From Oscillospiraceae bacterium (lineage in GTDB: Bacteria > Bacillota > Clostridia > Oscillospirales > Acutalibacteraceae), in the NCBI GenBank assembly GCA_015066345.1, contig SVOQ01000009.1, positions 24,748 to 88,747 on the forward strand: DNA of 64,000 nucleotides, written 5' to 3'. Below, in pieces: positions 12,519 through 54,864 of this stretch. The notes under the pieces were generated by a model that made no database searches, was not told the origin of the DNA, and was given only the letters and a program-made list of their open reading frames with translations. Every line of letters begins with the position of its first letter. Position 1 is the first letter of the stretch. Made by a program: the position numbers and the translations under genes.

Positions 12519-14459
12519 TTAGTTGATAGTCTTTTCGTCTACTTCTTTCTGAGCCATTTCTACAAATGTGTCAACGCTCATTGTTCCCATATCGCCGGCT
12601 TTTCTTGCACGTACTGCAACTTCACCGTTTTCGATTTCCTTGTCACCAAGAACAAGCATATAGGGAATCTTCTGAAGCTGTGCCTCACGGATTTTATAAC
12701 CTGTTTTTTCGGATCTGTCGTCAACAGTTACACGGAAGCCCTTTGCCTCAAGTTTATTCTTAAGTTCATAACAAGCATCATGATGTCTTTCGGAAATGGG
12801 AAGAATACGGAACTGCTCAGGAGCAAGCCACAAGGGGAACGCACCTGCGTATTTTTCAATAAGAAGAGCAAGTGTTCTTTCGTAGCATCCGATAGAAGTT
12901 CTGTGGATAATATAGGGATTCTTCTTAGTACCGTCACGGTCCACATATTCCATACCGAATTTTTCAGCGAGCATCTGGTCAATCTGGATTGTAATAAGAG
13001 TATCCTCTTTACCGTATACGTTCTTAATCTGGATATCAAGCTTCGGACCATAGAATGCTGCTTCACCAATGCCAACTTTATAAGTAAGACCGATATCGTC
13101 AAGGATTTCTTTCATTACGCCCTGAGCTTCATCCCACTGTTCCTTTGTACCGATATATTTTTCAGTATCTTCGGGATCCCACTGTGAGAAACGATATGAA
13201 ACGTCCTCATAAAGACCAAGAGTTTTAAGCATAAATATGCAAAGATCAAGACAACGTTTGAACTCGTCCGCAAGTTGCTCGGGAAGACACATAAGGTGAC
13301 CTTCTGAAATTGTAAACTGACGAACACGGATAAGACCGTGCATTTCGCCTGAAGATTCGTTTCTGAAAAGGGTTGATGTTTCAGCCAATCTCATAGGTAA
13401 ATCACGATATGAACGGGCTCTGTTAAGGTATGCCTGATACTGGAAGGGACAAGTCATAGGACGAAGTGCAAATACTTCATCATCCTTTTCTTCATCACCT
13501 AAAACAAACATACCGTCTTTGTAATGGTCCCAGTGACCGGAAATTTTATAAAGGTCGCTCTTTGCCATAAGGGGAGTTTTTGTACGTACCCAACCCCTCT
13601 TTGCTTCTTCGTCTTCAACGAAACGCTGAAGTGTCTGAACAATAAATGTACCCTTGGGAAGAAGTATGGGAAGTCCCTGACCGATGCTGTCAACGGTTGT
13701 GAAGATTTCAAGTTCTCTGCCGAGTTTGTTGTGGTCACGTTTTTTCGCCTCTTCAACTCTCTGAAGATGTTCTTCAAGCTCTGCATTTTTGGGGAATGCA
13801 GTACCATAAATACGTTGAAGCATTTTGTTGTTCTGGTCACCACGCCAGTAAGCACCTGTACAAGCAGTAAGTTTAAATGCTTTTACTCTACCTGTTGAGG
13901 GAATGTGAGGACCTGCACAAACATCTGTAAATTCGCCCTGTTTGTAGAAACTGATGGGTTCATTTTTACCTGCGTGTTCTTCAATAAGTTCAACTTTATA
14001 AATTTCGCCCTTGGCCTTCATTTCTTCAATAGCCGCCTGAGGCTCCATCCGGAATCTTTCAAGAACAAGGTCTTCTTTTACGATTTTTTTCATTTCCGCT
14101 TCAATTTTTGTAAGAAGCTCGGGTGTAAAAGAAGTTTCACAGTCAATATCATAATAGAAACCGTTATCAATAGCGGGACCTATTGCAAGTTTAGCGTTGG
14201 GATAAAGGCGTTTTACTGCCTGAGCAAGGATATGGGACGCTGTGTGCCAGAATGCGTGTTTACCCTCATCACTATCAAATGTGAGAAATTCAAGTTCGCA
14301 GTCCTCGCTAATGGGAGTACGTATATCTGCACTCTCGCCGTTTATAAGACAAGCACAGAGATTTCTGAAAAGACCCATACTGATATCTTTGCAAACATCA
14401 ATGGGAGTAACACCGTTATCATACTCTCTGACATCGTCACGAAGTTTAATCTTTACCAT
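12519..14459 (-). CDS. thrS: Threonyl-tRNA synthetase
   Basis: 646 aa; TGS domain, HTASHILAQAVKRLYP, class II motifs (TSTLFRNE, RVRQFTISEGH). Confidence 0.97.
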   Translation of the reverse strand: MVKIKLRDDVREYDNGVTPIDVCKDISMGLFRNLCACLINGESADIRTPISEDCELEFLTFDSDEGKHAFWHTASHILAQAVKRLYPNAKLAIGPAIDNGFYYDIDCETSFTPELLTKIEAEMKKIVKEDLVLERFRMEPQAAIEEMKAKGEIYKVELIEEHAGKNEPISFYKQGEFTDVCAGPHIPSTGRVKAFKLTACTGAYWRGDQNNKMLQRIYGTAFPKNAELEEHLQRVEEAKKRDHNKLGRELEIFTTVDSIGQGLPILLPKGTFIVQTLQRFVEDEEAKRGWVRTKTPLMAKSDLYKISGHWDHYKDGMFVLGDEEKDDEVFALRPMTCPFQYQAYLNRARSYRDLPMRLAETSTLFRNESSGEMHGLIRVRQFTISEGHLMCLPEQLADEFKRCLDLCIFMLKTLGLYEDVSYRFSQWDPEDTEKYIGTKEQWDEAQGVMKEILDDIGLTYKVGIGEAAFYGPKLDIQIKNVYGKEDTLITIQIDQMLAEKFGMEYVDRDGTKKNPYIIHRTSIGCYERTLALLIEKYAGAFPLWLAPEQFRILPISERHHDACYELKNKLEAKGFRVTVDDRSEKTGYKIREAQLQKIPYMLVLGDKEIENGEVAVRARKAGDMGTMSVDTFVEMAQKEVDEKTIN

Positions 14460-14494: not shown

Positions 14495-14840
14495 ATTTAA
14501 TAAAAAACAGACCTTATCCTATTTGTAAAACAAATGGGATGAAGTCTGATAACTCCACGGTTCCACCCAAATTATACTACGCAAACCTCCCTTGCGAAGG
14601 GAGGGGGACCATCTTTACGATGGTGGAGGGTTCTAGCACCATAGGTGCGTAAAATAAAATCCTTTACCCTGCAGTATCACTCGAGATGCCTTAACGCGGC
14701 TTATACGGCAACACTTATCTTTCGCTTCGTGTCGCACTCGGGAGTGGTCTTGGGGAAAATCCTTTGACACCTTGCACCAACCGATGTCTCTCTGAAAAAG
14801 GTAAAATCCTTAATTTCTCCGTCATGGATTTGAACTATTT
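14495..14840 (-). promoter_or_regulatory. T-box leader of thrS with terminator/antiterminator
   Basis: Reverse strand GGGTGGAACCGTGG T-box sequence, then CAGACTTCATCCCATTTG..CAAATAGGATAAGGTCTGTTTTTT terminator, upstream of thrS. Confidence 0.88.
14582..14632. repeat. Dual-hairpin palindromic repeat inside the T-box leader
   Basis: caAACCTCCCttgcgaaGGGAGGgggaCCATCtttacGATGGtGGAGGGTT: two hairpins inside complementary ends; related to 25775-25842. Confidence 0.7.
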
Positions 14841-17928: not shown

Positions 17929-19344
17929 ATGAAACGTTTTTTTAAAATATTGGCTATAACTGTGGCATTCATTATGACTGTTTTACCAACTGTTTCTTTT
18001 GCCGCAACCTCTATTGAAGGCAAGGATTATGTTATGGACAGTTGTTATGAAAATGTTGATTGGGACAATTGGAAAGCATACAAAGTTCAACTTCATTGCC
18101 ACACAAATGCAAGTGACGGTTATCTTACCGTAAAAGAGGTAGTACAAAAAAGCTATGATTTAGGTTATGACGCAGTTGCCATAACTGACCACGGCACAAT
18201 TAACAAGGGTTGGAATAACGAGCCCGACCTTATCCCCATTGTACGACTTGTAAAATATGAACGCACCGAACTTGCCGACATTATTCCCCTCACTCAAGAA
18301 GAATATGACTCATATATCAACGGTACAGCACCCACAACAAATGGTACTGTTCGTGAAAACGGTATGATTGACGTACCTCAAGGTATTGAACTTAATGCGG
18401 CTACACCTGTTGCAGACTGCCATCTTACAGGTTACTATTGCGATTACGGTCAGGGTTTACTTGGTGTGTACGGTGACTACGAAACGCCCTCCAAAGGCGT
18501 TAAAGACGCAGGCGGTATCTCTATGTTATCCCACGTAGGTGAGTATGTTTATCCCGATAAGGATTCCGAAAACTATGTAGGTCAGCCTGTTGATGAGTAT
18601 TATGTAAACAAGTTCTCCAGACTTTTCCTTGATAATGCAGGTTCATCAGTGGGTATAGGAATCAACAGTGCAACCGATGCACACACCCGTTGCGACAGAA
18701 TCCTTTATGATAGTATTCTTCAAAAGACCATTCCTTACGGTGTTGTTCCCTGGGGTTTCACATTCTCCGACTCCCACGACGAACAATCGCTCAATAACGC
18801 ATACACAATGCACTATATGCCCGACATTTCCAACAATGATTTAAGATACAGTATGGAAACCGGTACATTTTTTGCGGTTTCACATTTCTCAAATGGTGTT
18901 GAACTTAACGGTATGAGAGAAATGCCCGAATACATCGAAGAGGAAGTAGACGCATATTCCAACGAAACTCCCCTTGTAACAAAAATCGAAATTGACGAAG
19001 AACACGATACAATCAGTATTGAAGGCGAAAATTTCGATACAATAACATGGGTTTCAGACGGTCAGGTACTTAAGCGTAGCGGTATAGAGGACGCAACCAT
19101 AGACCTTGACGATTTCAAGAATGTTGGTTGTTACATTCGTTTTTATATTACCGGTGAACACGGTATATGCTATTCACAACCAATTGTTATTCACGAAAAT
19201 AATGTTATTCTCGAAAGCCCGGAAGTTCCTCACACAAGAGACATTTCAACATTCCTTCGTACTCTTGTAACATTCCTTGATATTCTTTTCTTCCAGAATA
19301 GCGAATTCATTGATATCTTCAAAGAAGTAGCTCTCGGCTATTAA
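17929..19344 (+). CDS. Secreted PHP-domain phosphoesterase-like protein
   Basis: Signal peptide, VQLHCHTNASDGYLTVKEVVQKSYDLGYDAVAITDHGT. Confidence 0.88.
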   Translation: MKRFFKILAITVAFIMTVLPTVSFAATSIEGKDYVMDSCYENVDWDNWKAYKVQLHCHTNASDGYLTVKEVVQKSYDLGYDAVAITDHGTINKGWNNEPDLIPIVRLVKYERTELADIIPLTQEEYDSYINGTAPTTNGTVRENGMIDVPQGIELNAATPVADCHLTGYYCDYGQGLLGVYGDYETPSKGVKDAGGISMLSHVGEYVYPDKDSENYVGQPVDEYYVNKFSRLFLDNAGSSVGIGINSATDAHTRCDRILYDSILQKTIPYGVVPWGFTFSDSHDEQSLNNAYTMHYMPDISNNDLRYSMETGTFFAVSHFSNGVELNGMREMPEYIEEEVDAYSNETPLVTKIEIDEEHDTISIEGENFDTITWVSDGQVLKRSGIEDATIDLDDFKNVGCYIRFYITGEHGICYSQPIVIHENNVILESPEVPHTRDISTFLRTLVTFLDILFFQNSEFIDIFKEVALGY

Positions 19345-19359
19345 TTTCTGAATAAACCT

Positions 19360-19388
19360 AAGGCGATGCCATAGTGCATCGCCTTTTT
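19360..19388 (+). terminator. Rho-independent terminator after the PHP gene
   Basis: aaggcgatgc-catagt-gcatcgcctttttt. Confidence 0.85.
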
Positions 19389-19396
19389 TCGTTTTT

Positions 19397-19804
19397 AAAA
19401 AAGAGTGCCGAAAACTCGACACTCTGAATGTTTGTAAGATTTTTTCGAGATGTATGCAGATTTCTGATTTTATGAACCCGAAGCGTATCAAGATACGTGA
19501 GATAAATAAAAAAACAGAGACCTGTCTCCAAGTCTCTGTATCGTATTTTTTGTTTGTAGTGTGCAGATTTTTTGCTTTAGGTGACCCGAAGCGTATCAAG
19601 AAAAAAGAGTGCCGAAAACTCGACACTCTAAATGTTTGTAAGATTTTTTCGAGATGTATGCAGATTTCTGATTTTATGAACCCGAAGCGTATCAAGATAC
19701 GTGAGATAAATAAAAAAACAGAGACCTGTCTCCAAGTCTCTGTATCGTATTTTTTGTTTGTAGTGTGCAGATTTTTTGCTTTAGGTGACCCGAAGCGTAT
19801 CAAG
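19397..19804 (-). repeat. Two tandem copies of a 204-bp unit with terminator hairpins
   Basis: Unit starting aagagtgccgaaaactcgacactc at 19401 recurs at 19605 with near identity; contains GAGTG..CACTC and CAGAGAC..GTCTCTG hairpins. Confidence 0.93.
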
Positions 19805-19857
19805 ATACGCGAGTTGGGTCGCATAAAGCGAAAAAGATGTGCGCTACGGACAAAAAA

Positions 19858-20103
19858 TTAGTCTGCTGTGTAGGGAAGAAGAGCTATCATTCTTGCTCTC
19901 TTAATAGCAGTAGTGAGCTCTCTCTGATGGTATGCACATGTACCTGTTACACGGCGGGGAAGGATTTTTGCTCTGTCGGATGTATAACGACGAAGTTTAG
20001 CAGCATCCTTATAGTCAATTTTTTCAACCTTCTCAACACAGAAAGCGCAAACTTTTTTGCGGCCTTTTTTGTTGGGACGGCGATCGCTTTTATCGTATGC
20101 CAT
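19858..20103 (-). CDS. rpsR: 30S ribosomal protein bS18
   Basis: [56 protein letters not shown]. Confidence 0.97.
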
Positions 20104-24687: not shown

Positions 24688-25512
24688 TTACTCAGCAAGA
24701 GTAAGGTTGTATTTCTTTGCGAGTGCATCAAGTGTACCGTCAGCTTTGAGTTCGTTGATAATCTTCTGAACTTCATCAGCTGTATCAGCACCTTTTCTGA
24801 AACCGATACCATAGAATTCCTCAGAAAGAGAACCTGTATATGTGAGAGCTTCGTAATCTGTGCCTTCACCAGTCATAGCCTTAGCCATTGTGATGTCGAT
24901 AACACAAGCATCAACTGCACCTGACTGAACTTCAAGAAGAGCATCAGCCTGAGCTTTTACGGGAACTGCATTAAGTTTTAATGCAACAACTTCTTTTTCA
25001 CCTGCAGAACCGCTTTCAACAGCAATGTCTGCATCCTTTAAATCTTCAGCAGTTTTATATTTTTCTGCATTTTCTGCTTTTGTTACGATTACCTGTGCGT
25101 TAACAACATAGGGGTCGCTGATTGACATAGCACCTTTAAGTTCGTCTGTGATTGTCATACCGTTCCATACACAGTCGATTGTCTTAGAGTCAAGTTCGTT
25201 AACTTTCATACCCCAGTCAGCAATAATAAAGAATTCTGCTTCAACACCAAGTTTCTCACAAACTGCTTCAGCAAATTCTGTATCGAAACCAACAAGTTTG
25301 TCGCCCTCATAGTAGTTCATAGGTGCATACTCTGTGATACCGATAACCATTTTGCCTTTTTCTTTGATGTAAGCAAGGTCGGAAGTTTCTGTAGCAGGAG
25401 CTTTTGTTGTTTCATCGTTTTTTGCAGGTTCATTGCCGCAAGCTGCGAATGCGCAAACAACACCGCAAACGAGAACAATGCTCATTACGATAGCTAAAAT
25501 TTTCTTTTTCAT
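24688..25512 (-). CDS. Amino acid ABC transporter substrate-binding lipoprotein
   Basis: MKKKILAIVMSIVLVCGVVCAFAACG lipobox; SBP_bac_3 features; GGAGG upstream of 25512. Confidence 0.92.
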   Translation of the reverse strand: MKKKILAIVMSIVLVCGVVCAFAACGNEPAKNDETTKAPATETSDLAYIKEKGKMVIGITEYAPMNYYEGDKLVGFDTEFAEAVCEKLGVEAEFFIIADWGMKVNELDSKTIDCVWNGMTITDELKGAMSISDPYVVNAQVIVTKAENAEKYKTAEDLKDADIAVESGSAGEKEVVALKLNAVPVKAQADALLEVQSGAVDACVIDITMAKAMTGEGTDYEALTYTGSLSEEFYGIGFRKGADTADEVQKIINELKADGTLDALAKKYNLTLAE

Positions 25513-52405: not shown

Positions 52406-52685
52406 AAGTTAAAGTAATATTATCCCCTATTTTTTAATGGGGGATATTTTTGTCTGTTTTTTATGGGATTCGACCACTTCGTCGTCATTAAACATAAAAA
52501 AACAGAACTACACGACACAAAAGTAATTCTCTTTTTAATTAATAATCCGTATGGTAAGCAGTTTTTCTCCTTTCCCTCTTATCTCTTCTCTGGAAAAGTC
52601 GTGTGTTTTAGAAAATAGTGAAAAGGTAAAAGAAAAAAGTGAAAAGAACAAAAAGAAAAAGCCGCTCAAAAGCGACTTTTCTTTT

Positions 52686-52776
52686 TGGTGCCGGTGACCG
52701 GGGTCGATGGGCTCTGCCCATCATTCGCTACGCGAACACCCGATTATGTTCGGCTTCGCCGAGGCGGTTCGACCCC
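52686..52776 (-). repeat. tRNA-Leu-associated three-hairpin element (3' tRNA copy + core + inverted T-arm)
   Basis: 24-bp direct repeat of tRNA-Leu 3' end (52684-52707 vs 52830-52853); core TCGGCGAAGCCGA-ACATAATCGGGT-GTTCGCGTAGCGAAT-GATGGGCAGAGCCCATC on the minus strand. Confidence 0.85.
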
Positions 52777-52831
52777 TTCGTCATAATTAATCATAAAAAA
52801 AGAACTCACACATATGTGCAAGTTCTATCTT

Positions 52832-52918
52832 TGGTGCCGGTGACCGGGGTCGAACCGGTACGGTATCGCTACCACTGGATTTTGAGTCCAGCACGTCTGC
52901 CAATTCCATCACACCGGC
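52832..52918 (-). tRNA. tRNA-Leu (CAA)
   Basis: GCCGGTG..GGACTCAAAATCC..GGTTCGACCCC..CACCGGCACCA; 87 nt, type II, CCA encoded. Confidence 0.95.
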
Positions 52919-53055
52919 AAATATTACTGAACTATTATATTATATACAATTTAAAAAATCAATATTAATTTTTTATTTATTAATAGAAAATGCCCTGAAT
53001 TTTAAATTCGGGGCATTTTCTAAACTTTATGATAACTGAAACGGAGATAAAAATT

Positions 53056-53577
53056 TTAATAATTCATATTCTGGATATTGTATCTTTCTTGGACATCTGC
53101 AAAGTTTACCAAGAACTTTTCCGCTTTTTTTATTCTATTTTTTCTGATAAGATGAATGATTCCTAAAACTGCTATAGGACAAGAAAAGAACGCACATAAT
53201 GTAAGAAACATTACTGCCAAACCCGTTATAATATCAAAAGGGAACGGGATTATAAACCAACCCCAAAACCCAATTTTACCTACGATTTTAAGTGTTTCAA
53301 GAACACTGCCACTCAAAAAGTACGAAACAATACATCCAACAAAACCCACAAAGATTACCCCTAATGTAATTACACCAAAAATATCAGTCCAAGGTCGGGG
53401 TAAATATATTGCTGACTGAATACATGCCGCTACTACACCGAACCCCCATACTAACATTGATACTGCAGCAACCACAAGTCCTTTTTTAGATTTTTCAATT
53501 TTCTTTGACTCTTTTGCGATTGTTTCTTCTGCCATTACTATGTTAGTAATATCATCATAAAAATAATTTCTTTTCAT
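53056..53577 (-). CDS. Multi-pass membrane protein of unknown function
   Basis: Several hydrophobic segments; AAGGAG upstream of the ATG. Confidence 0.75.
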   Translation of the reverse strand: MKRNYFYDDITNIVMAEETIAKESKKIEKSKKGLVVAAVSMLVWGFGVVAACIQSAIYLPRPWTDIFGVITLGVIFVGFVGCIVSYFLSGSVLETLKIVGKIGFWGWFIIPFPFDIITGLAVMFLTLCAFFSCPIAVLGIIHLIRKNRIKKAEKFLVNFADVQERYNIQNMNY

Positions 53578-53800
53578 TTTCTTTTTTCTCCTTGTTTTTG
53601 CAACAATTTGTTTATGTCAACTTGATTATACACTTCGTTGTTAAATCTGTCAATATGTAAATCAAAATATTTTTTTGTAAGGTTATAATCCGACACATCA
53701 GAAAAACCGAAAATCCCTGATTTTACAAGGATTTTCGGCACAAAAAAATTATAAAAAAGATAATAAAAATAAAAGCACCTGCATCTTTGCAAGTGCTTTG

Positions 53801-53932
53801 TGGTGACCCGGACGAGAATCGTCAAGGCGTTGCCTTGACGATTTGCTTCGCAAATATCCTATTTTATGTCCCTTTCGGCTCCGCCGTTCGGCGAACCGCC
53901 GAAAGATGGACGATTGTGAGTTCGATTCTCTG
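53801..53932 (-). repeat. tRNA-Glu-associated three-hairpin element
   Basis: 25-bp direct repeat of tRNA-Glu 3' end (53797-53821 vs 53987-54011); hairpins CTTTCGGC..GCCGAAAG, ATTTGC-GAA-GCAAAT, CGTCAAGGC-AAC-GCCTTGACG; inverted T-arm GAGAATCGAACTC. Confidence 0.8.
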
Positions 53933-53990
53933 TTTTTTCTATCATCGAATATAAAAAAGAAAAAACCTTGAACACTAAGCTCAAGGTTTG

Positions 53991-54065
53991 TGGTGACCCG
54001 GACGAGAATCGAACTCGTGTTACCGCCGTGAAAGGGCGGTGTCTTAACCGCTTGACCACCGGGCC
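53991..54065 (-). tRNA. tRNA-Glu (UUC)
   Basis: GGCCCGGTGGTCAAGCGGTTAAGACACCGCCCTTTCACGGCGGTAACACGAGTTCGATTCTCGTCCGGGTCACCA. Confidence 0.96.
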
Positions 54066-54126
54066 GTATATGAGGGGCTCAAGAGCCCTTTTATGTAACA
54101 CCTTTCGTAGGTAGGTGTGTTGAAAT

Positions 54127-54203
54127 TGGTAGCGGCAGTGGGATTCGAACCTACGACCAATCGGGTATGAACCGAGTACTCTAGCCAGCTGAGCTATACC
54201 GCC
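54127..54203 (-). tRNA. tRNA-Met (CAU), probably elongator
   Basis: GGCGGTATAGCTCAGCTGGCTAGAGTACTCGGTTCATACCCGATTGGTCGTAGGTTCGAATCCCACTGCCGCTACCA; Ile-lysidine identity not excluded. Confidence 0.93.
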
Positions 54204-54369
54204 ATATATATGAACAACATACATACCTACGCAGGCGATTTACGCTCTCTTCCGAAAGCCTGTTAATTATAATATGTAAAAATGGTTTTGTCAATAGTTT
54301 TTTATAAAAAACTTTTATAATATTTTTCTATTGATTAAAAAATTATTTTTTTATTAATAAAATTACCCC

Positions 54370-54398
54370 TTGACAACCGATGGTTTTGTATGTATAAT
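54370..54398 (+). promoter_or_regulatory. Promoter of the tRNA-Gly/tRNA-Arg operon
   Basis: TTGACA (54370-54375), 17 bp, TATAAT (54393-54398). Confidence 0.85.
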
Positions 54399-54411
54399 AT
54401 CTCTTGCATTT

Positions 54412-54487
54412 GCGGATGTAGCTCATCTGGTAGAGCGCCACCTTGCCAAGGTGGAGGTAGCGAGTTCGAGCCTCGTCATCCGCTCCA
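54412..54487 (+). tRNA. tRNA-Gly (GCC)
   Basis: GCGGATGTAGCTCATCTGGTAGAGCGCCACCTTGCCAAGGTGG..GCTCCA. Confidence 0.96.
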
Positions 54488-54492
54488 TATAC

Positions 54493-54569
54493 GCGCCGGT
54501 AGCTCAGTTGGATAGAGTGTCTGGCTACGAACCAGAAGGTCAGGGGTTCGAGTCCCTTCCGGCGCGCCA
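54493..54569 (+). tRNA. tRNA-Arg (ACG)
   Basis: GCGCCGGTAGCTCAGTTGGATAGAGTGTCTGGCTACGAACCAGAAGGTCAGGGGTTCGAGTCCCTTCCGGCGCGCCA. Confidence 0.96.
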
Positions 54570-54624
54570 AAAATAAAGTAATCACTTCGGTGGTTGCTTT
54601 ATTTTTTTGTATCCAAAAGTATTT

Positions 54625-54807
54625 CGGACTCGGACCCCCACTCGCCGAAGGCGAACATAATCGGGTGTTCGCGTAGCGAACGATGGGCAGAGCCCATCGA
54701 GTCCCTTCCGGCGCGCCAAAAATAAAGTAATCACATTTGTGATTGCTCTGTTTTTTGTTGTTTCGAAATTTTGGGACTCGAACTCCCACTCGCCGAAGGC
54801 GAACATA
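54625..54807 (+). repeat. tRNA-Arg-associated three-hairpin element, one full copy plus one truncated copy
   Basis: 37-bp direct repeat of tRNA-Arg 3' end + terminator arm (54549-54585 = 54698-54734, period 149); core ACTCGCCGAAGGCGAACATA repeated at 54640-54659 and 54788-54807. Confidence 0.88.
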
Positions 54808-54864
54808 CTGATATTGACAATTACACATATTTATGCTAAATTAACCCCAAAGGAGGAATATTAA

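Follow-up and report, generated by a model that had tools for sequence, protein, structure and literature searches.

Three tRNA loci with a common arrangement

The 64,000-nucleotide stretch of DNA analysed here (the window; positions 24,748 to 88,747 of the forward strand of contig SVOQ01000009.1, assembly GCA_015066345.1, from an Oscillospiraceae bacterium) contains genes for tRNA-Leu(CAA), tRNA-Glu(TTC) and tRNA-Arg(ACG), each followed by a small structured element, which we call a unit. An earlier note, made from the sequence of this stretch, claimed that the three loci, read on the tRNA strand, share one layout: the tRNA is followed by a terminator, an inverted copy of the T-arm of that tRNA, three hairpins (A, B and C), a direct copy of the 3' end of the tRNA and a second terminator. 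This layout is indeed present at all three loci (Table 1), the direct copies being the last 21-22 nt of the respective tRNA, ending in CCA, and the copy-to-copy periods of 146, 190 and 149 bp (Leu, Glu and Arg) are as claimed. The Leu and Arg cores are near-identical and form 86-nt inverted arms that are 85% complementary, and the Glu locus shares the layout and the ACATAA linker and has a longer first hairpin. The open reading frames (ORFs) called across the tRNAs and units at window positions 52639-52968, 53859-54224 and 54343-54828 are spurious and would become small hypothetical proteins.

Table 1. Positions in the window of the features that make up the Leu, Glu and Arg loci
Locus	Feature	Positions	Strand	Sequence or remark
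Leu	tRNA-Leu(CAA), intact host gene	52832..52918	-	ARAGORN, Rfam
Leu	Proximal (unit-borne) terminator	52795..52826	-	Hairpin + T7
Leu	Inverted T-arm of tRNA-Leu	52766..52776	-	GGGGTCGAACC
Leu	Hairpin A	52750..52762	-	TCGGC-GAA-GCCGA
Leu	Linker after hairpin A	52738-52749	-	ACATAATCGGGT
Leu	Hairpin B	52723..52737	-	GTTCGC-GTA-GCGAAT
Leu	Hairpin C	52706..52722	-	GATGGGC-AGA-GCCCATC
Leu	Displaced direct copy of tRNA-Leu 3' part	52686..52707	-	TCGACCCC...CCA
Leu	Distal terminator	52656..52677	-	
Leu	Probably a decayed remainder of another Leu unit (spacer + inverted arm)	52469..52502	-	Repeat; 299 bp from its counterpart
Glu	tRNA-Glu(TTC), host gene of a B-type core unit	53991..54065	-	ARAGORN
Glu	Proximal (new) terminator	53960..53987	-	
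Glu	Inverted T-arm of tRNA-Glu	53918..53930	-	GAGAATCGAACTC
Glu	Long first hairpin, B-type	53868..53911	-	GTCC...GGGAC
Glu	Hairpin B	53841..53855	-	ATTTGC-GAA-GCAAAT
Glu	Hairpin C	53820..53840	-	CGTCAAGGC-AAC-GCCTTGACG
Glu	Displaced direct copy of tRNA-Glu 3' part	53801..53821	-	
Glu	Distal terminator, ancestral	53771..53798	-	Matches the empty Glu locus of G014
Arg	tRNA-Arg(ACG), host gene	54493..54569	+	ARAGORN
Arg	Proximal terminator	54571..54608	+	
Arg	Inverted T-arm	54626..54638	+	GGACTCGGACCCC
Arg	Hairpin A	54642..54654	+	TCGCC-GAA-GGCGA, then linker ACATAATCGGGT
Arg	Hairpin B	54667..54681	+	GTTCGC-GTA-GCGAAC
Arg	Hairpin C	54682..54698	+	GATGGGC-AGA-GCCCATC
Arg	Direct copy of tRNA-Arg 3' part	54697..54718	+	
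Arg	Second terminator	54720..54756	+	
Arg	Second, truncated unit	54770..54807	+	Inverted T-arm, hairpin A, ACATA

The units form a tRNA-anchored family

A BLAST search of the source genome (G000, a 2.33-Mb assembly in which the window sits in contig C6) with the Arg unit gave 13 matches, and a covariance model built from ten unit copies gave 15. Besides the three loci of the window, units in this genome adjoin Ser(gct), two Met genes, Ala(cgc) and Pro(ggg), and a tandem pair adjoins tRNA-Ser(gga); a further neighbour, at the start of C6, is Leu(tag), assigned by its 3'-end sequence. Among the 60 relatives searched, 23 had covariance-model matches at E <=0.01, the strong ones all lying within the same genus; the richest genome is that of a sister species of the source (G009, 95% complete), with 31 matches. 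The 123 distinct matches with the most common core type (the A core, described below) are almost all located 3' of tRNAs. Copies of the tRNA 3' end at set periods were found at 56 of the 94 tRNAs in the fetched loci, a figure that is no genome-wide rate because the loci were chosen by matches; in control genomes (the sister genera G022 and G028 and the unit-poor member G011), a 3'-end copy or an inverted T-arm was found at 0 of 62 tRNAs.

Outside the genus, the covariance model gave only weak matches when run on 120 genomes from the family and 297 from the order. Those in G127 and G181 turned out on inspection to be hairpin arrays without tRNAs and were rejected as units. Scanning the GTDB collection for a 24-base pattern returned 69 stretches, all in metagenome-assembled genomes titled Clostridia, Oscillospiraceae or Ruminococcaceae, many of them with a ruminant-gut isolation source in the title. 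A pattern scan of viral contigs returned 0 matches, and BLAST of phages and plasmids with the units returned none. An Rfam search of the window, where a match to a known family had been regarded as a possible refutation, raised tRNAs and a T-box alone to the gathering score and no family for the units. A description of such units was not found in the open-licence literature, which by itself does not prove its absence elsewhere. The unit family is thus real, tRNA-anchored and undescribed as far as these searches reach, and the host range of the tRNA-linked units, as sampled, is one genus of uncultured ruminant-gut Oscillospirales. The covariance-model search that the earlier note had suggested returned many copies in G000 and its relatives, nearly all 3' of tRNAs, with arms specific to the host tRNA and helices that covary, and its proposal of a new tRNA-anchored three-hairpin family stands.

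Anatomy of the units

Each unit consists, in order, of a tRNA 3' part (T-loop to CCA), its own terminator, an inverted T-arm and three hairpins, after which the next 3' part follows. The catalogue of units, drawn from loci where the tRNA itself is present, contains 82 A-core units, a further 2 A-core units that are long, 15 units in which an inverted T-arm goes with a core of another kind or with a divergent A core, and 6 inserts that have 3'-end copies and are devoid of an inverted T-arm. The A core has the form TCG[G/C]C-GAA-G[C/G]CGA, linker ACAYAATCGGG, hairpin B, hairpin C, and the A units repeat with a median period of 149 bp (146-156 bp, 10-90%). B cores, found at Glu, Pro(ggg) and Tyr, have a longer first hairpin, and C cores, at Pro, Gln and Leu(gag), have the hairpin AAAACAGTCCGGTG(G/A)ACTGTTTT in common. 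Units may be arranged in tandem; Arg in G009 has as many as five, of which the last is truncated. An extra CCC:GGG stem between the inverted arm and the linker is not claimed here, the longest helix being merely 3 bp in 68 of 103 copies.

The inverted arm matches the local tRNA at 13.1 of 14 positions on average, compared with 10.0 for other tRNA types. At the same time, one core subtype (TTGCCG...CGGCAAAGCGTAGCGA...CCG) is found between Arg arms in G009, between Leu(gag) arms in G009 and G003, and between Leu(tag) arms in G001 and G002. The arms must therefore have been re-matched as cores moved between tRNAs, possibly via hairpin-templated repair of quasi-palindromes.

Two irregular arrangements were encountered. 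At L114 (G013:C87:1-3600), the unit that comes after a Leu(caa) unit is a hybrid, combining a Leu terminator and spacer with Arg arms and an Arg 3' end; this hybrid could be due to recombination between divergent Leu and Arg units (possibly an inversion) or to an assembly join. In the source genome, the right half of a unit with the 3' end of tRNA-Pro(cgg) lies far from any tRNA (G000:C21:49622-49667; L011, L014). This half-unit shares DNA with a 2.2-kb insert at tRNA-Pro(cgg) (L144) and probably marks the far end of a larger Pro(cgg) insert.

A conserved fold

Pairing holds in 97.4% of the pair cells of 103 distinct copies, and double-sided changes occur in 21 of the 25 pairs. Double-changed cells number 319 as compared with 87.5 in shuffles (0/500), and the signal is lost on sliding the partners. 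The closing stem, formed by the inverted T-arm and the 3' half of the T-arm, is paired in 96% of cells, with double-sided changes in 5 of its 7 pairs. These figures come from an alignment that was fitted to the covariance model and is hence biased toward structure; compensatory cases free of the model include the exchange of CC-GAA-GG and GC-GAA-GC in hairpin A, and hairpin C of the orthologous Leu unit reads GACGGGC-AGA-GCCCGTC in G008 and GATGGGC-AGA-GCCCATC in G000. The proposal that the T-arm copies pair and enclose the three hairpins is thus borne out by covariation; we infer from it a structure that serves recombination at the DNA level rather than a tRNA-like RNA.

The loops, as read from alignment columns, are mostly triloops: C[GAA]G in 99 of 103 copies for hairpin A, mostly C[GTA]G, C[GAA]G or similar for hairpin B, and mostly C[AGA]G or other NNA triloops for hairpin C. 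C-GNA-G triloops are unusually stable in DNA. The terminators of the units have tetraloops in 45 of 65 cases and triloops in 7, and this contrast between core triloops and RNA-like terminator tetraloops is suggestive of a role in DNA but no proof of it. A T-run of five or more is present in 63 of the 65 terminators between CCA and core in the proximal units examined, and the distance from CCA to the core is 60-80 nt. Folding with DNA parameters recovered the three hairpins of A-type sequences with z-scores of -3.4 to -4.1; for a C-type sequence, the closed form was not obtained.

Point of entry and evolution of the cores

Comparison of orthologous loci, another check that had been suggested, revealed that some Leu, Glu and Arg orthologues have units and others lack them, and that most empty loci of the genus carry no trace of the core. 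The Glu locus is the most informative one. It is empty in G014, and the terminator found there (CAAAGCACTTGC...) is the distal terminator of G000; the proximal Glu terminator of G000 differs from the distal one and resembles terminators of G008. At Pro(ggg), the last terminator is common to G000 and G009 and the inner ones are different. The order with the old terminator in the distal position is thus clear at Glu and supported at Pro(ggg), the remaining loci being homogenised. Since the distal terminator appears to be the old one, above all at Glu, units would enter at the T-loop and restore the tRNA. Judged from the sequences, Glu and Pro(ggg) fit an entry upstream of the old terminator in which a new 3' end and terminator are supplied. 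Whether the 3' end is carried by the unit or arises as a 22-bp target duplication, the same sequence would be expected.

The cores appear to form lineages specific to tRNA types. The mean core distance is 0.20 at the same tRNA in different genomes and 0.25 at different tRNAs (0/300 label shuffles), and the nearest core in another genome is at the same tRNA in 32.7 of 88 cases, with 5.9 expected. Tandem copies at one tRNA are near-identical (median distance 0.019). Recent burst-like transposition within genomes was ruled out because cores at different tRNAs are no closer to each other within a genome (mean distance 0.298) than between genomes (0.254).

Gene cassettes in the same arrays

Several arrays contain inserts that carry genes. 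At tRNA-Leu(gag), inserts of 5.6-5.8 kb ending in a 3'-end copy are present in G008 (L064) and G009 (L076). They have a common right end (~164 bp at 91%) and different gene content: one encodes AIPR, a GmrSD/HNH restriction enzyme, an EcoRI-type methylase and AbiD, the other AIPR (AbiU-like) and a SIR2 protein. At tRNA-Thr(cgt), a lone DUF4241 gene occupies a 1.28-kb insert in G019 and G002, and the insert of G021 has another gene, for an uncharacterised 277-aa protein, and the same right end; these single-gene inserts (L041, L068 and L286) are bounded by tRNA 3'-end copies. At tRNA-Leu(taa) of G009 (L063 1063-4402), the defence candidates DitA and DitB lie between units 9.8 kb apart, in a stretch that also holds ordinary-looking genes, and at tRNA-Met of the same genome a 2.4-kb stretch with an amidase is located between units. 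No integrase was seen among the ORFs read in the larger inserts L062, L063, L064, L076 and L041. Two integrases do occur on the unit-bearing contigs G012:C13 and G014:C12, where no island bounded by units could be defined. The gene inserts and the hairpin units are linked by co-location and by their common 3'-end borders, and it may be that one machinery moves both.

Search for a mobilising enzyme

G000 and G009 each encode one PF00589 protein, Xer-like by NCBIfam and below the XerC and XerD cut-offs; the G009 protein is of the host Xer type and adjoins spoIIM-like genes. The integron integrase model TIGR02249 scored the G000 and G009 recombinases at 88.7 and 83.2 against a cut-off of 265. Reverse transcriptase (PF00078) had no match in G000, G008 or G009, which leaves the earlier suggestion of a retrotransposed element unsupported, and Y1 transposase (PF01797) had none in G008 or G009. 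A Y1 transposase, a serine recombinase and a reverse transcriptase were accordingly dismissed as required enzymes, all three being without a match in G009. With a lone Xer-like recombinase and no match to the other classes, units must therefore be moved by the host Xer or by an enzyme of an unsearched class or of a transient element, or else be immobile now. The case for host Xer is circumstantial and comes from the fact that the sole tyrosine recombinase of G000 and G009 is Xer-type.

Comparison with known systems

The units work most like the tRNA islands of tyrosine integrases and like integron cassettes, and pass the membership tests of neither in full. With Islander-type islands (PMC4383910) they share entry at a tRNA, a restored 3' end, a displaced fragment at the far end and tandem arrays; unlike those islands, they are ~150 bp long, have no gene or integrase, and possess three conserved hairpins as well as an inverted T-arm. 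Islander accepts a candidate island only if it holds an integrase (PMC4383910) and would therefore reject these units. With integron cassettes and attC sites (PMC3053210, PMC4792948) they share tandem cassettes, entry beside a fixed site, small gene cassettes without a recombinase, and an inverse core site that pairs with the core site on folding of the strand, with hairpins between them. However, the core site of a unit is the T-arm of each tRNA and not a fixed sequence, the targets are many, three hairpins take the place of the attC arrangement, the closing stem has no conserved bulge or identified conserved extrahelical bases in our alignment, and no integron integrase is present in G000 or G009.

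The folded single strand of CTXphi attP(+) (PMC3089051) is a precedent for rebuilding a site for a host recombinase, and G000 and G009 likewise have a Xer-type enzyme as their only tyrosine recombinase; the target of the units, in contrast, is a tRNA T-arm and not dif, and phage genes are absent from them. REP/REPIN sequences with the Y1 enzyme RAYT (PMC3116915, PMC2817692) are also short non-coding hairpin repeats possibly moved in trans, but lack the tRNA-specific arms and 3'-end copies of the units, and Y1_Tnp has no match in the copy-rich G008 and G009. Finally, integrase-lacking 'hitcher' elements rely, like the units, on functions of others (PMC11389934); as reviewed there, those are mobilizable elements and islands, whereas the units consist of structure only.

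A model of unit movement and its alternatives

The data show the anatomy of the units, the tRNA specificity of their arms, covariation, tandem arrays, patchy presence, an old terminator in the distal position (in one clear case) and the gene cassettes. In the explanation that we prefer, the units are non-autonomous, tRNA-specific integrating DNA cassettes whose structure acts as DNA and which are mobilised in trans; we give this statement as a whole a probability of about one half. That a unit is a piece of DNA integrated at the T-loop is likely; that a folded single strand is its acting form is proposed more tentatively. A unit would comprise four parts, namely the 3' part of the tRNA (roughly C56 to CCA), the terminator, the inverted T-arm and the three-hairpin core, and would enter at the T-loop of its tRNA gene. 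Such entry would give the tRNA a new 3' end and terminator and leave the old ones as a displaced fragment, and repeated entries would build tandem arrays. The single strand would fold so that the inverted arm pairs with the T-arm and rebuilds a duplex T-arm core site, analogous to what integron attC and CTXphi attP(+) offer to their recombinases, and mobilisation would be provided in trans. We infer in this way the action of a recombinase at the T-loop, a single-stranded substrate and ongoing movement of units. Of the mechanisms listed in the earlier note, the best fit is a small mobile element aimed at tRNA T-loops.

Several points weigh against this explanation. Covariation is expected of any conserved fold and by itself selects neither DNA nor RNA, and GNA triloops occur in RNA too. 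Plain integration explains the matched right arm and not the inverted left arm that matches the tRNA, so that a correction step (hairpin-templated repair) is needed. The mobilising enzyme was not found, G009 having no PF00239, PF00078 or PF01797 match, and the authors of Islander state that Xer-dependent islands use dif and not tRNA genes (PMC4383910).

It is possible, though unlikely, that the units are ordinary tRNA-site islands which decayed to miniature scars after double-stranded recombination by tyrosine integrases at the T-arm, the integrases having been lost and the hairpins having no role in movement. A restored tRNA with a displaced fragment is the classical signature of islands (PMC4383910), conventional integrase islands exist in the genus, for example beside tRNA-Met in G007 (L217), and the right ends of the Leu(gag) inserts look ordinary. 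Independent decay, however, is not expected to yield a constant period of 146-156 bp over many tRNAs and species, nor a conserved three-hairpin core with double-sided changes and a near-universal inverted T-arm. A structured three-hairpin RNA, tRNA-like or regulatory, that arises by read-through from the tRNA and is closed by the T-arm stem would account for the shared strand, the covarying helices and the stable folds. We consider it improbable because a terminator with a T-run separates the tRNA from the proximal cores examined, over a short gap, and because the core triloops differ from the loops of the neighbouring RNA terminators; moreover, no partner is visible in the inspected units for the acceptor 3' strand of the copy, and presence at orthologous tRNAs is patchy. 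The co-transcribed RNA of the earlier note is disfavoured on these grounds.

Casposon-type integrases are known at tRNA genes, and an insert made of terminator, inverted arm and core could have been placed in a transposon-like manner, by a transposase or Cas1-type integrase acting in trans, with a ~22 bp target duplication from T-loop to CCA that is inseparable by sequence from a carried 3' end. Such a duplication would be unusually long, the arms differ from tRNA to tRNA and so provide no fixed terminal repeats, and there was no burst within genomes (0.298 within against 0.254 between them); we give this possibility little credence. Least of all do we favour a process without any mobile enzyme, in which tandem duplication and template switching at T-arm palindromes during replication give rise to the repeats and spread them. 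The closeness of tandem copies at one locus (median 0.019) and the inverted arm, an expected product of snap-back copying of a palindrome, agree with it, but the presence of the same core at over a dozen different tRNAs calls for movement of that core, and most empty loci of the genus have no trace of it. In its boldest form, our proposal of trans-mobilised DNA cassettes would become a tRNA-based, integron-like capture system in which the T-arms of many tRNAs are docking sites for folded single-strand cassettes (empty, single-gene or multi-gene defence), the arms are re-copied and a Xer-type or other enzyme acts in trans; this extension is speculative, and we consider it rather doubtful.

Significance

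Bacterial islands dock at tRNA genes more often than anywhere else, and units of this kind will escape island finders that insist on an integrase. One genus has arrays of gene-less units, whose structure is kept by compensatory changes, together with swappable defence genes or genes of unknown function and no adjacent integrase. If the folded-strand mechanism is true, capture of single-strand cassettes would exist outside integrons with tRNA genes as its platform, and the movement of integrase-free tRNA islands would become a testable question. Annotation should mask the units, which give rise to false ORFs. Many unit matches are located at contig ends; the units therefore probably break assemblies.

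Other repeats and features

Two further kinds of repeats were seen at tRNA genes. A different family begins directly after CCA at L013, L057, L066, L069, L077, L081 and L093, with a terminator (GAAAAAAGC...GCTTTTTTCAATGAAAT) and then hairpins that have GTGAAAT (or ATGATAT) linkers between them; inverted linkers further on suggest one large branched fold. After tRNA-Leu, Arg and Glu at L236, L240, L241 and L247, CCA is followed by the repeat AAACRAAAATCC...GGATTTT with AATGAATAATGA stretches, which is present at several tRNAs and genomes. Elsewhere in the window, a T-box leader (14532-14834, minus strand) lies upstream of an ORF resembling threonyl-tRNA synthetase (12519-14459), and at 19246-19861 ORFs on both strands share an internal repeat (FGSPKAKNLHTTNKKYDTETWRQVSVFLF...), pointing to a DNA repeat.

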